From assembly GCA_902801325.1 (NCBI GenBank), contig CADCHQ010000001.1:248001-312000 (forward strand): 64,000 nt of DNA. The letters run 5' to 3'. The stretch's first letter is position 1. Each line of letters begins with the position of its first letter. The notes beneath the pieces are model-generated. The model did no database searches and was not told the origin of the DNA. It was given only the letters and a program-made list of their open reading frames with translations. The DNA comes from an uncultured Bacteroidales bacterium. Its GTDB lineage: Bacteria; Bacteroidota; Bacteroidia; Bacteroidales; Bacteroidaceae. Below are positions 8,046 to 57,815 of this stretch, one piece after another. The position numbers and the translations under genes were made by a program.

Positions 8046-8078
8046 TAATCGATGAGGCTTAGGCCTGTGGTAAAACGA

Positions 8079-8345
8079 ATATAGGTTCGAGGCTCATCGT
8101 AATCGGACGCAAAGCTACGCTTGCGTAGAGAAACGGAGCAAGAACATAGGTTCGAGGTTTGTCGAATGCAGGTTCGAGGCGTACCGAATATAGGTTCGAA
8201 GCATATCGAACCTAGGCTCGGGGCCTGTCGAACCTAAGGTGCAAAATAATAAGGCCTAAGGCGTTCGGACGGAAGCCCTCAGGTCCTCTCGAATAAGGCC
8301 TTAGGTCCTCCTTTGTAAGACCTAAGGCTTCCTTGTCGAAGGCTT
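8079..8345. repeat. 22-bp-phased repeat array (array A) in the gap before susC
   Basis: The 430-bp gap between the YbjQ gene and susC contains no gene. It is filled by degenerate units with the core AGGTTCGA(G/A)G at 8083, 8148, 8170 and 8192 and AGGCTCGGGG at 8214; the last four are exactly 22 bp apart. The following 100 bp carries CCTTAGG/CCTAAGG-type units (for example at 8261 and 8300), the same second motif seen in array B. A palindrome-centred dispersed repeat (8096-8146) interrupts it between the first two units. Confidence 0.85.
8096..8146 (-). repeat. Dispersed palindrome-centred repeat, copy 1
   Basis: On the minus strand this reads TTCTTGCTCC, a short gap, TACGCAAGCGTAG, a gap, TCCGATTACGA. 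The same arrangement recurs at 20938-20990 and, more diverged, at 23816-23857 and 57126-57172. The core CTACGCTTGCGTAG is a perfect 14-bp palindrome here. No open reading frame is associated. I do not recognise the family. Confidence 0.7.
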
Positions 8346-16847: not shown

Positions 16848-17160
16848 ACTTAGGTCTTTTTCATTAAGCCTTAGGCCTTCCGCCCGAAAGCCTTAGGCCT
16901 AATTTTTTACACCTTAGGTTTAATGAAACTCGAACCTATGTTCATTGTACTTCGAACCTATATTCGTTGTACTTCGAACCTATATTCGTTGAGCCTCGAA
17001 CCTATATTCGTTGAGCTTCGAACCTATATTCGTTGAGCTTCGAACCTATATTCGATTGACTTCGAACCTTAGGCCTTCCGAGATAACCCCTTAGGCCTTC
17101 CGGAATAATCCCTAAGGCCTTCTGAAATAATCCCTAAGGGTTCCAGAATGACGCCTAAGC
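16848..17160. repeat. 22-bp-phased repeat array (array B), the longest
   Basis: The 508-bp gap between the convergent GH85 and rfbB genes holds a terminator and then about 15 consecutive units. CTTAGG-type units start at 16848, 16869, 16891 and 16912. TCGAACC units start at 16930, 16952, 16974, 16996, 17018, 17040 and 17062, all exactly 22 bp apart. CCTTAGG/CCTAAGG units follow at 17067, 17089, 17111, 17133 and 17154. Within each TCGAACC unit, CGAA and TTCG form a small inverted repeat. There are no variable spacers and no gene. Confidence 0.9.
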
Positions 17161-28380: not shown

Positions 28381-30639
28381 TTGAACACCGTCGCTCTCCG
28401 ATACCAAGCCATTTATCTCGATGTGAAAGACATCGACATGAACCGTCAGGCGTCGCCTGCCGTACTGGCCTTTGTTGCCCGACTGCGAGAGCGTGGTTAT
28501 ACGCTTACGGAGGAACTCTTCCGTGCCTTATGTGCTGAGCCAGCTACTACGTTGGCCGACATTACTCGAGACATTGATGAGGCATTAGGCGTCAACCTTA
28601 ACTGGGCACCTTTGGTTAAGGGTTGGGACGTGCCTACTGGAGAGACGTTCCTCGATCATCTGGTGACGTGGTTCGTGAATGTAACAGGTGCTGATGTACC
28701 GGGTACAGAACTGCCTTGCGGGCATCTAATACCCGATGGAACCTTCCCGTTGGAGCGTTACAATGGTTGTCCGTATTGTGGACGTCCTTTCGTAACAGCG
28801 AATTATGTCTTTAAAGGACAGGGCAGTAAATTGAAAGAGTTGCGCCTTTTCCGTCTGTCCGACATGCAACACCTGTTGGAAACTTTGCTCACGTCTCCGA
28901 CTCCACTTGATGCCACACAATTGGACTCCGTTAAAAGGTTAATTCATCATTTACCATTCGCAATTCATAATGGGGTCGTGCCGCAGATGCGTGAAACGAG
29001 AATGGTGGTTATCAAGTGCTTGATGGAACAAGGAAGGGGCGATGAGGCTCAACCGTTGATGGAGACTCCTACCGACGTGCTTCGCTATTTGTGGTATGAG
29101 AAGACGGGACAACTGCAAATCATAGAGCCTCGCACACTGATTGCCCATGCAGGCGGACTGAATCGCCATCTCTGGCCAACGGCCGATCGAAGTCAAGAAG
29201 CCATAGGTTCAATGCGCGATGAACTTAGGCTCAAGTACAATCGAACCTATGCTCGATGTGTAGCCAGTTGGCTCAACAGTTTATCTATGTCTGCGAGCCA
29301 GGCGGCAGAGCAGATGCATCCGAAGCGAGGCATGTGGGTAAGGATGATTCGTGCCTTGCGTCTGGGCGAGATGAGCCGAAAGCCTGGTTTCGAGCGGCTA
29401 AGGGAACTGCTCGACGTGTTCTACCATCAGAACTACAACACTTGGCAAGGTCAACTGGATGCTGCGCATAAGCAAAACGACAGACAAAAGGCGTTGGCTT
29501 TGCTCTGCGAGCGTCCTGGATTGTTTGCACGTTGTCTGTTCTCTACCATGCTTCGCTATGGACGTGAGGAGACATTGCAAGCCTTTAGTCGGGTTACAGA
29601 TAAATTACCTGCCCGATTATTGCTTTCGCTAAGTAATGCTGCCGAAACATATTTCGATCCAGAGGGCTTTGGAGGAGAACGTATAGTGCGCCCCATTACC
29701 GGGACGCCCAAAGCCATTGCGCTGAACAAGATGCTATCGCTCTATGACTTAAAGGAAAGGCGAAGAATGGCCGATTCCATCGAAGAAATTTATCTTCAAA
29801 CGATGACAAGGCGATTTGCTCAACAGGGACAAAAGGAAGAAGGAAGTCGTGTCTATATTGATAAAGAATTATATCATATTCCTTTGGCTGTGGGCGATCG
29901 TTCGACGACAATTCAAGATACTGCTTGCGCCCTACAAGGAACGTGTTTCCAAGTAGAAGGCGACAGTGTGCGATTGTTTTTGCAGTGGGGTAAAGGCTTA
30001 CCTGCCCAGCATCTGGATATGGACCTCAGTGCCCGTATTGTCAAGCGAGATGGGGAAGTTGTGGAATGTGCCTTTTACAATCTCGCACCAACAGGGGCAA
30101 AGCACTCGGGCGACATCCGTGAAATTCCCGACCAAGTGGGAACGGCCGAATATGTAGAACTGGAATTGCCTGAACTGGAACGCTCAGAAGCGGAATATGT
30201 GGTATTCACCTGTAATGCTTACAGCAATGGCGCCCTTTCGCCCAATTTGATGGTGGGATGGATGAACTCAGCCTATCCTATGTCCATCTCCGACAAGGAC
30301 GGAGTGGCCTACGACCCTTCATGTGTTCAGCATCTGGCACGCATCAGTGAGGCCAACCTGTCAAAGGGACTGGTCTTTGGCATATTGAAGGTTAGAGAAC
30401 GGGAAATCGTGTGGATGGAGGTTCCTTTCACAGCGCAAACTGTGGCTCAACTGGATGGTCGAGTGGTGGAGGATATGTTGCGACGTTTGGAACACAAAGC
30501 CACGATAGGCCAGTTGCTGGAATTGAAGGCACAGGTGCAAAAGAGTTCGCTCGTCGAAACTCCTGATAAAGCCGACGAGCGATATACCTATGAGTGGGCA
30601 CTTAATCCTGCCGAAGTGGCGAAAGTACTCTTTCTGTAA
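28381..30639 (+). CDS. RING-like, TerD-like protein resembling the MXAN_6230/SCO0854 family
   Basis: The 752-residue protein has an N-terminal helical part, a Cys/His cluster at about residues 115-140 (CGH then CPYCG) resembling a RING or zinc-ribbon knuckle, a long helical middle, and a C-terminal beta-rich domain (about 490-720) with TerD-like features (DMDLSARI, GWMNSAYP). This resembles the actinobacterial and myxobacterial MXAN_6230/SCO0854 family, whose function is unknown. The TTG at 28381 is chosen because the residues before the first ATG (28438) look like the family's N-terminus and a stop lies at 28369. Three 22-bp repeat units lie in frame at 29187-29252. No neighbour suggests a role. 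Confidence 0.65.
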   Translation: MNTVALRYQAIYLDVKDIDMNRQASPAVLAFVARLRERGYTLTEELFRALCAEPATTLADITRDIDEALGVNLNWAPLVKGWDVPTGETFLDHLVTWFVNVTGADVPGTELPCGHLIPDGTFPLERYNGCPYCGRPFVTANYVFKGQGSKLKELRLFRLSDMQHLLETLLTSPTPLDATQLDSVKRLIHHLPFAIHNGVVPQMRETRMVVIKCLMEQGRGDEAQPLMETPTDVLRYLWYEKTGQLQIIEPRTLIAHAGGLNRHLWPTADRSQEAIGSMRDELRLKYNRTYARCVASWLNSLSMSASQAAEQMHPKRGMWVRMIRALRLGEMSRKPGFERLRELLDVFYHQNYNTWQGQLDAAHKQNDRQKALALLCERPGLFARCLFSTMLRYGREETLQAFSRVTDKLPARLLLSLSNAAETYFDPEGFGGERIVRPITGTPKAIALNKMLSLYDLKERRRMADSIEEIYLQTMTRRFAQQGQKEEGSRVYIDKELYHIPLAVGDRSTTIQDTACALQGTCFQVEGDSVRLFLQWGKGLPAQHLDMDLSARIVKRDGEVVECAFYNLAPTGAKHSGDIREIPDQVGTAEYVELELPELERSEAEYVVFTCNAYSNGALSPNLMVGWMNSAYPMSISDKDGVAYDPSCVQHLARISEANLSKGLVFGILKVREREIVWMEVPFTAQTVAQLDGRVVEDMLRRLEHKATIGQLLELKAQVQKSSLVETPDKADERYTYEWALNPAEVAKVLFL
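29187..29260 (+). repeat. 22-bp repeat units inside a coding sequence (array E)
   Basis: Within the RING/TerD-like gene, TCGAAG, TCAATG, TCAAGT and TCGATG lie at 29187, 29209, 29231 and 29253, exactly 22 bp apart, and AGG at 29205 and 29227 starts units like AGGTTCGA..TCGAACCT of array A. Three units equal 66 bp, so the frame is kept. Confidence 0.75.
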
Positions 30640-40346: not shown

Positions 40347-40404
40347 GAAAATGAGAGAATAAAGTACGTCAAATCAAGTGGACGCTTATTCTCTCATTTT
40401 TATA
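40347..40404 (+). terminator. Terminator of the AGCS-mtnN operon
   Basis: AAAATGAGAGAATAA and TTATTCTCTCATTTTT form a 15-bp stem with a T-rich end directly after the mtnN stop. Confidence 0.9.
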
Positions 40405-40421
40405 CCCTTATTCGTTATCCA

Positions 40422-40545
40422 TCGAACGCTTATTCGACGTGCATCGAACCCTTGTTCGTTGTACATCGAACCTAGGTCCATTTATTTTGTGCCTAAGGCC
40501 TTCGGACAATAAGCCTTAAGTCCTCGGGCAATAGCCTTAGACCCA
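40422..40545. repeat. 22-bp-phased repeat array (array C)
   Basis: TCGAAC units start at 40422, 40444 and 40466 and CCTAAGG/CCTTAAG/CCTTAGA units at 40492, 40514 and 40535, the same order of two motif types and the same 22-bp period as array B. It lies between convergent mtnN and the RecQ-tail-like gene. Confidence 0.85.
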
Positions 40546-47877: not shown

Positions 47878-47965
47878 CCTCGCGCGTGCGTGATACCTAA
47901 TTATATGTAACGCACGTCATACTGAACAATTGTCCCCTTTTCATTAAGCCTATGCTCGAGGCGCC

Positions 47966-48045
47966 TCGAACCTGCATTCGATCCACTTCGAACCTATGTT
48001 CAATGAGCCTCGAATATAGGTTCGATTTTCATCGTACTTTTTTCC
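47966..48045. repeat. 22-bp-phased repeat array (array D)
   Basis: TCGAACC, TCGAACC, TCGAATA and TCGTAC start at 47966, 47988, 48010 and 48032, exactly 22 bp apart, in the gap between convergent rodA and the MerR gene. CGAA and TTCG alternate about every 10-12 bp. Confidence 0.85.
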
Positions 48046-56022: not shown

Positions 56023-56667
56023 ATGAAGAAAGTTTTTCATGCCGCCCTGTTCGACCTCGATGGTGTCATACTGGACACTGAAGGTCAGTACACCCGTTTT
56101 TGGGGTGAGATGGGGCGTAGGTATGTGCCTTCCGTTCCCGATTTTGCCCAGCGCATAAAAGGTCAAACCCTTTTGCAGATGTTCGATGCGTGGTTTCCCG
56201 AACCTGATGTCCAGCGCGACATAAAAAGGCTATTGGACGAATTCGAAATGCAGATGACCTATCCTTATATTAAAGGTGCGCACGCGTACGTGAAGGCTTT
56301 GCATGAAAAGGGTGTGCCTACGGCGATTGTCACCAGCTCGAATCTTTTGAAGATGGAGAATGTCTATCGCCTGCGTCCCGAACTTAAGGAACTCTTCACG
56401 CTTATACTCACCAGTGAGGACTTCAAGGCAAGCAAGCCCGATCCCGATTGCTATCTGTGTGCGGCCCAACGGCTTGGGGTGCCCATAAACGAGTGCGTGG
56501 TGTTTGAGGATAGTATGAACGGACTTCGAGCTGGACGTGCTAGTGGGGCGTATGTAGTAGGCTTGGCTACCACGAATCCGAAGGAAACGATAGCTCCCTT
56601 GTGCGATGAAGTGGTAGATGACTTCGAAACATTCCCCCTCAAGGAGGAGATGGAGGGGGTCCTATGA
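56023..56667 (+). CDS. HAD-superfamily phosphatase/phosphoglucomutase-like protein
   Basis: The 214-residue protein has the HAD motifs LFDLDGVILDTE (nucleophile Asp with the DxD acid), TSSN, and the SKPDPDCY and VFEDSMNGLRAG blocks of the beta-phosphoglucomutase-like subfamily. It removes or moves phosphate on a small sugar phosphate; the substrate is not readable. It overlaps pdxB by four bases, so its substrate may lie near the erythronate-phosphate or vitamin B6 pathway, but this is only an inference. Confidence 0.88.
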   Translation: MKKVFHAALFDLDGVILDTEGQYTRFWGEMGRRYVPSVPDFAQRIKGQTLLQMFDAWFPEPDVQRDIKRLLDEFEMQMTYPYIKGAHAYVKALHEKGVPTAIVTSSNLLKMENVYRLRPELKELFTLILTSEDFKASKPDPDCYLCAAQRLGVPINECVVFEDSMNGLRAGRASGAYVVGLATTNPKETIAPLCDEVVDDFETFPLKEEMEGVL

Positions 56668-57815
56668 AGCTCGTCATCGACGATAAGATTCCGTTCATTC
56701 AAGGTCAGGCAGAACGCGTGGCCGATGAGGTCGTTTATCTGCCAGTAAGCAAGATTGGTCCTGACGATGTGCGAGATGCCGATGCGTTGATAGTCCGTAC
56801 ACGAACCCATTGCAATCGTCAATTGCTCGAGGGCAGTCGAGTGCGATTCATCGCTACTGCCACCATTGGGTTCGACCATTTGGATACGGATTATCTGAAC
56901 GAAGCCGGAATTGTGTGGACCAATTGCCCAGGGTGCAATGCGACTTCAGTGGCTCAGTATGTCAGGAATGCCCTTATCGAAGCCGAAAGGGAAGGGATTG
57001 TAAAGCTTAGCGAAGCCTCGCTTGGGATCGTTGGCTATGGGCATGTGGGTCGTGCCGTTTGCGAGTCCTTGCGCCCTTATGTAAGGGAAATATTGCTCAA
57101 TGATCCACCGCTTGAGAATGAAGAATTCTTGCTCCGACAAGCTACGCAAGCGTCTCCTAACGTCGCCGAGCGAAGGATGAAGAATGAAGGATTAAGGATT
57201 AAGGGTGAGGAATTGGCTATTGCTTTTGAGGAAGAAAAGAGCGGAAACCCTGATACTTCACTTTTCACTCATCATTCTACGTTCAAATCACTCGCCGATC
57301 TCGCCTCTTCTTGCGACATCATCTCCTTTCACACGCCACTGACTGCCGAAGGGCTTTATCCTACATACCATTTGGCAAATGAACAATTCTTCCAAAGCCT
57401 AAAGCGAAAGCCCTTGCTCATCAACGCAGCACGAGGAGGAGTGGTCGATGAGGCGGCTTTGCTCGATGCGATGGACAAAGGTCTGGTTCGCCAAGCGATT
57501 ATCGACACATGGGAGGGAGAGCCCGCAATCAATGGGGCGTTATTAAGTAAAGTGTTCATCGGAACGCCTCATATAGCTGGCTATTCTGCGGACGGGAAAG
57601 CCAACGCTACACTCATGGCACTTCGAGCCCTTGTTCGATGGCAATCGAGCCTAGGTTCAATTGACATCGAACCTATGTTCGATATTCAGCCTCCCTTGGC
57701 TCAACCTGAACGAACCGGTATTTTCTATTCGCCTACAAGCGATTCCGATCAACTGAAAGAAAGTCCGCAAGATTTCGAGAATTTGCGTGGAAACTACCTT
57801 TTACGCAGAGAATAA
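56664..57815 (+). CDS. pdxB: Erythronate-4-phosphate dehydrogenase, with repeat-derived insertions
   Basis: The 383-residue protein has the PdxB layout: TATIGFDHLDTDYL, the NAD-binding GIVGYGHVGRAVCESLRP block, and the INAARGGVVDEAALL and DTWEGEP catalytic segments. It oxidises 4-phosphoerythronate in the DXP-independent pyridoxal phosphate route. Between residues about 154 and 212 an insertion carries a dispersed palindromic repeat (57126-57172), six GAAGGAT-type heptamers (57172-57213) and CACTTTTCACTC-type sequence; the C-terminal region has three in-frame 22-bp units (57623-57688). Homologues have a short loop at the first site. The core residues remain, so the enzyme may be active. Confidence 0.9.
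   Translation: MKLVIDDKIPFIQGQAERVADEVVYLPVSKIGPDDVRDADALIVRTRTHCNRQLLEGSRVRFIATATIGFDHLDTDYLNEAGIVWTNCPGCNATSVAQYVRNALIEAEREGIVKLSEASLGIVGYGHVGRAVCESLRPYVREILLNDPPLENEEFLLRQATQASPNVAERRMKNEGLRIKGEELAIAFEEEKSGNPDTSLFTHHSTFKSLADLASSCDIISFHTPLTAEGLYPTYHLANEQFFQSLKRKPLLINAARGGVVDEAALLDAMDKGLVRQAIIDTWEGEPAINGALLSKVFIGTPHIAGYSADGKANATLMALRALVRWQSSLGSIDIEPMFDIQPPLAQPERTGIFYSPTSDSDQLKESPQDFENLRGNYLLRRE
57126..57172 (+). repeat. Dispersed palindrome-centred repeat inside pdxB, copy 4
   Basis: TTCTTGCTCC, a 6-bp gap, then CTACGCAAGCGT, as in the copies at 8096-8146 and 20938-20990, but read as codons of PdxB. Confidence 0.65.
57172..57213 (+). repeat. In-frame heptamer tract (6 units, 42 bp) inside pdxB
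   Basis: GAAGGAT, GAAGAAT, GAAGGAT, TAAGGAT, TAAGGGT, GAGGAAT at exact 7-bp steps; 42 bp, 14 codons, the same length as two tracts in the GH92-GH28 gene. Confidence 0.88.
57623..57688 (+). repeat. 22-bp repeat units inside pdxB (array F)
   Basis: TCGAGCC, TCGAGCC and TCGAACC start at 57623, 57645 and 57667, exactly 22 bp apart, each with a later TTCGA or TTCAA half. 3 x 22 = 66 bp keeps the frame and encodes about 22 residues near the C-terminus. Confidence 0.85.

Follow-up and report, generated by a model that had tools for sequence, protein, structure and literature searches.

A dispersed 22-bp palindromic repeat in a rumen Bacteroidales genome appears to be read as protein through replacement of existing codons

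Genomic context and the repeat family

The window, a stretch of 64,000 nucleotides (C1:248001-312000), belongs to the genome of an uncultured rumen bacterium (G000; 3.38 Mb, 28 contigs, 94.66% complete). The host gene (Table 1) encodes a distant relative of the MXAN_6230/SCO0854 RING-domain family, as the 751-aa protein matched NCBIfam NF041916 with an E-value of 1.6e-48 and 165.6 bits, below the cut-off of 600, and Prok-RING_4 was matched weakly at residues 111-134, under its cut-off. Inside this gene lies an array of 22-bp palindromic units, and a second in-gene array is found in a gene (56664-57815) whose product is a putative PdxB. The hexamers TCGAAG, TCAATG, TCAAGT, and TCGATG, on which the original prediction of an in-gene repeat was built, lie exactly at 29187, 29209, 29231, and 29253.

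The repeat unit consists of a 16-bp palindrome (TCGAAC-N4-GTTCGA) and a 6-bp spacer, and recurs with a period of 22. A PWM of 22 columns was built from 78 strand-specific unit matches, drawn from 10 arrays between genes on the same contig, and its consensus, TCGAACCTAGGTTCGATGCGCA, comprises the 16-bp palindrome with a variable centre plus the 6-bp spacer of low information. In the window, 32 sites match the palindrome TCGAACMTANGTTCGA vs. 0.29 expected, and one of these sites, with one mismatch, is 29241-29256. With one array as the query, BLAST recovered 43 related places across the genome, while TRF called many 22-bp arrays on C1, chiefly between genes. A strong bias to intergenic gaps was seen, with 37 of 47 array sites in 794 kb being non-coding (not a random sample, as the stretches beyond C1 were picked around known arrays), and the 53 placed intergenic arrays were located between co-directional (28), convergent (21), or divergent (4) gene pairs. 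In the literature on Prevotella or Bacteroidales, our searches found nothing specific on intergenic repeats of 22 bp.

Mismatches between half-sites showed no strand bias (wobble pairs: 45 on the sense vs. 51 on the antisense strand), and as the period is also close to two helical turns, the arrays point to recognition of double-stranded DNA, not RNA. A function as RNA hairpins was rejected, since wobble pairs are no more frequent on the sense than on the antisense strand and Rfam, which returned only a tRNA over the window, placed no known structured-RNA family at the arrays. A phage or plasmid origin was likewise discarded, as the arrays matched no phage or plasmid record and no exact two-unit match was found in viral contigs.

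A second species is represented by G109, a yak-rumen MAG whose orthologue (L008) shares 89% protein identity with the host protein. Intergenic arrays shared by the two genomes are 70–91% identical, others occur in one species only, and array A (8075-8334) is partly conserved in G109. Just past the end of the window (C1 312000), G000 has a composite array at C1 312303-312443 and the orthologous place in G109 has TTAACC-type repeats, a difference that is array turnover between sister species. Two other kinds of repeats were observed in the window. Units of another 22-bp family (CCTAAGGCCTTCC type) recurrently follow those of the TCGAACCTA type within one gap, forming a composite element (8294-8334, 17067-17139, and 40494-40539), and many gaps between 22627 and 61412 hold numerous intergenic heptamer repeats (types AATTCTT, GTTTAAC, AGTTGAG, and ACAATTG, called by TRF).

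Table 1 Features of the window (coordinates are those of the window)
Feature	Position	Strand	Description and basis
Host gene	28384..30639	+	ORF, 751-aa protein; TTG at 28381 is a possible upstream start
In-gene palindromic array, three 22-bp units	29201..29267	+	Residues ~273-295, on the conserved LRLKYNR motif; PWM, codon alignment
Degenerate upstream continuation (TCGAAG...)	29187..29200	+	Weak; outside the PWM-delimited array
Intergenic array A	8075..8334	-	TCGAACCTA-type units 8075-8233, then AAGGCCTT-type 8294-8334; TRF; non-coding
Largest intergenic composite array	16930..17139	+	Six TCGAACCTATATTCG units, then three CCTAAGGCCTTCC units; TRF score 208 and 104
Intergenic composite array, convergent genes either side	40404..40539	+	TRF, gene context
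Intergenic array	47949..48027	+	91% identity to the G109 copy
pdxB-like gene (erythronate-4-phosphate dehydrogenase)	56664..57815	+	Pfam 2-Hacid_dh, 2-Hacid_dh_C
Second in-gene array of the window, in pdxB	57606..57704	+	~6 residues longer than outgroups; PWM 71.3 bits, three units; alignment

The array within the host gene

At a score of 30, TRF makes no call on the in-gene array at 29201-29267, because its copies are too diverged. The PWM did detect it, scoring 26.7 bits with one unit, 36.2 with two, and 47.1 with three, the highest-scoring stretch of three units starting at 29202. Maxima in synonymous-codon shuffles (20 times, 285 genes, 349 kb each) were 24.6, 26.4, and 24.1 bits, and those in loci of other organisms (79 loci, 527 kb) 20.1, 6.4, and − 6.0 bits. 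Given these three-unit scores, the resemblance at 29202-29267 is real, not chance. The best intergenic match to the array is 77% identical over 57 bp (score 31), and other segments of the host gene score 10–12.

The host protein was aligned with 82 homologues, from the same genus out to Flavobacterium, Hymenobacter, and Saprospiraceae. No gap was found at residues 268-293, and all 82 have an equal number of residues across the array, meaning that residues ~269-291 are not the insertion that had been proposed. The fact that 66 bp, the length of three units, is a multiple of three has no bearing here, because the gene has gained no net length; moreover, a unit of 22 bp is not a whole number of codons, so each unit is read in another frame than the one before it. 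Other parts of the original prediction held: a DNA repeat found elsewhere mainly between genes is translated here into about 22 residues, and the array is confined to the lineage, being present only in this genome and in G109 (48 bits for three units, the remaining 80 homologues scoring − 26 or lower).

In the frame of the host gene the repeat reads IGSMRIEPRFDAHRTYVRCA. The G109 orthologue has IGSMRNELRLKYNRTYVRCV, and the closest orthologue that lacks the repeat (L009, genome G046) has EEVMRRNLRLKYDRRWCRRV. In the codon alignment with the latter, the differences lead towards the repeat consensus, whether they are silent or replace a residue. The silent ones are ATG AGG to ATG CGC, CTG CGC to CTT AGG, and CGC to CGA, and the replacements are GAGGAGGTG to ATAGGTTCA and CGCTGG to ACCTAT, by which EEV became IGS and RW became TY. 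Compared with L009, a conserved Cys position is lost in the array segment of G000, and CTC AAG TAC (LKY) is the same in both genes. The segment spans the motif LKLKYxRxxCRxVAxWLN, of which the LKLKYxR core is common to the whole family. Repeat-free homologues carry the same residues at this place only in part, with the core being kept and the repeat-derived IGS and TYxRC being absent. Since none of the 82 homologues has a gap here and the core occurs in every one of them, the alignment indicates that the repeat at 29201-29267 is read as protein through in-place replacement of codons, not insertion.

Overlays in other genes

Overlays were detected by PWM in five further genes of the same two species (pdxB, a THUMP-like gene, a sulfatase, GH26/AXE1, and GH20), giving six overlay genes only, five of them on one contig. 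The net length change was 0 in the host gene, 0 in GH20, + 1 in GH26, and + 6, + 7, and ~ + 13 residues in the others, always less than the array, and the gains in PdxB, the sulfatase, and the THUMP-like gene (~18, 21, and 39 bp) are not multiples of 22. In GH20, the conserved YVRQTNVRWQ was rewritten largely silently, and the THUMP-like gene has the composite junction TCGAACCTAAGG-N-ATAAGGCC, as in an intergenic element. The outgroups have no overlays, except for G046, in which the GH26-gene array is present. This array-bearing GH26/AXE1 segment (L268, G046:C75) is 91–95% identical to G000, while other genes of the pair show 71–84%, and a transfer is probable from these identities.

FolK (C1 160566-160977) and MiaB (C1 165059-167237) have one strong unit each and were left uncounted, as a single-unit score is close to the shuffle maximum, and two ORFs (C1 127085-127528 and 362901-363239) were excluded because they are probably intergenic arrays misread as genes. 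The MiaB-like gene (L096:5063-7237, i.e., C1 165063-167237, outside the window) also has a complete DUF559 (endonuclease-like) in frame between UPF0004 and radical-SAM. In pdxB, an in-frame insertion at 57126-57284 (residues ~155-206) contains 7-bp GAAGGAT/GAAGAAT repeats at 57172-57213, a second repeat family read as protein; the insertion is absent from G109, and in other relatives the loops at this place are short or unrelated.

Silent-site divergence between the two species

When the six genes were compared between G000 and G109, codons for the same residue were identical in 100 of 105 cases (95%) within arrays vs. 2090 of 3078 (68%) outside (p 1e-11), and none of 20,000 random window sets reached the in-array codon identity. 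Protein identity, on the other hand, was 0.835 in arrays vs. 0.898 outside, and 30 of the 35 nucleotide differences in arrays change the residue. Silent divergence reaches its minimum in the arrays and rises again in part over the ~60 bp on either side. For the host gene alone, 15 of 19 same-residue codons were identical in the PWM-delimited array vs. 0.63 outside (p 0.12), and 20 of 23 with the array limits of the original prediction (p 0.011). The sites were chosen by high score in one genome, which removes some divergence on that branch; this ascertainment explains part of the silent-site effect and is unlikely to explain all of it.

The freezing was equal at low-information (33/36) and non-consensus positions (27/29), which does not support motif-specific purifying selection as its sole cause. 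As selection of that kind would put the differences mainly in the spacer, the pattern would rather be the signature of a segment that is younger than the gene or repeatedly exchanged.

Proposed mechanism and alternative explanations

We consider it somewhat probable, judging from these comparisons, that a dispersed, lineage-specific palindromic array was written over existing codons by short-patch copying, with continued exchange between copies. Array DNA would replace host DNA in short, microhomology-guided patches, with outcomes of 0, 0, + 1, + 6, + 7, and ~ + 13 residues of which the in-frame ones alone would be kept, and the copies could keep exchanging with one another or between strains, which would make the arrays look younger than the surrounding genes. 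The protein would accept repeat residues where it is free to do so and retain its own codons (CTC AAG TAC) where it is not, this host block inside the array requiring either a mosaic patch or later selection. Such copying, followed by filtering for frame, explains why net lengths vary, why host codons persist in a mosaic, how the composite junction came to be copied, and why the arrays look young. The in-gene overlay is present in both species, and no before/after pair within one species was found. For short-patch double illegitimate recombination, the process on which such copying would draw, our literature search returned no paper. We suggest more tentatively, as a plausible reading rather than a probable one, that the element spreads length-neutrally, genes included, its patches replacing host codons (silently under constraint) and subsequently becoming alike across species by exchange.

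The main rival of short-patch copying is selection for a protein-binding array, in which the arrays would be cooperative sites for a putative dimeric DNA-binding protein and the in-gene sites would have arisen via selected point substitutions, silent under protein constraint. The palindromic unit with its constant phase and 22-bp length of about two helical turns, the largely silent rewriting of YVRQTNVRWQ in GH20, the frozen silent sites, and the lack of RNA-strand asymmetry agree with such selection. However, spacer and non-consensus positions are among the frozen sites, and the differences show no concentration in the spacer. In addition, arrays are rare in divergent, promoter-bearing gaps (4/53), they are gained and lost between sister species, and the composite junction of the THUMP-like gene suggests copying. 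We view selection for binding as possible, though unlikely.

Molecular drive of the kind known for uptake sequences, with putative preferential uptake and recombination of motif DNA, would let the motif build up in tolerant sites and array-centred segments coalesce recently between species. It fits the minimum of silent divergence at the arrays with its partial outward recovery, as well as the ~91–95% identity of the GH26 array segment between G000 and the more distant G046, but known uptake sequences are short and non-palindromic (PMC1939737), and we find this explanation improbable.

An ordinary in-frame insertion similar to the Rickettsia palindromic elements (RPEs), as originally proposed, could be argued from the lineage-specific gains of ~6, 7, and 13 residues at the arrays of three other genes. 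These gains are nevertheless smaller than the arrays, GH20 has no net insertion and GH26 one residue, and the gap-free alignment of 82 homologues rules out an insertion at 29201-29267, which makes this reading very hard to sustain. A chance likeness of ordinary codons to the repeat, for which the missing TRF call and the ancestral, conserved LRLKY block might be cited, is hardly credible in view of the 47 bits reached here vs. 24 in shuffles and − 6 in natural controls, the more so as the orthologue of the sister species scores 48 bits and five more genes show the pattern too.

If short-patch copying is correct, proteins can change by templated replacement, which is neither insertion nor ordinary point mutation. 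Repeats translated within genes usually come to notice as insertions, and a screen for gaps would miss the overlay at 29201-29267. As this overlay covers a conserved stretch and left the length of the gene unchanged, it suggests that proteins can be reshaped by a dispersed DNA element through the replacement of letters, not their insertion. With their near-frozen silent codons and freely changing residues, the six overlay genes make templated patches, a DNA-binding protein, and biased exchange directly testable against each other. They also carry a warning, as a DNA element, not selection on the protein, can be what lies behind a low silent divergence and unusual residue changes in array-bearing genes.

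Comparison with known systems

The closest known systems are RPEs, REP/BIME, and DNA uptake sequences, and with each of them the repeat disagrees in at least one defining feature. Similar to RPEs and other protein-coding MITEs, it is a palindromic repeat dispersed between genes and in frame in unrelated genes, here six genes and many intergenic sites. However, RPEs are elements of ~150 bp that are inserted into genes (PMC10969869), whereas here 22-bp units overlay existing codons, and at 29201-29267 the 82 homologues show no net in-frame insertion.

With REP/BIME, which come with RAYT transposases, the repeat shares short palindromic units (16 bp within 22 bp) that are clustered, present in many copies, mostly intergenic (37/47 non-coding), and away from divergent promoters, but copies are also located inside genes. 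REPs end on one side in a tag, GTAG or CGTC (PMC3733652), and the repeat consensus, which was scanned in place of the individual copies, has neither. No match to the RAYT/Y1 transposase (PF01797) was found in G000 (94.66% complete) or in G109, and a RAYT-driven REP was rejected.

The DNA uptake sequences of Neisseriaceae and Pasteurellaceae are over-represented short motifs that also occur in tolerant parts of genes and whose spread is explained by molecular drive (PMC1939737). The repeat is alike in its over-representation and its presence in genes, but it forms tandem arrays of palindromes, unlike those short, single, non-palindromic motifs. The coding palindromes of nematomorph mitochondria are similarly inverted repeats within coding sequences, at odds with protein constraint. 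They are long and perfect, reaching up to 284 bp (PMC6649704), whereas the repeat described here forms a family of short units that are scattered over the genome and follow one consensus.
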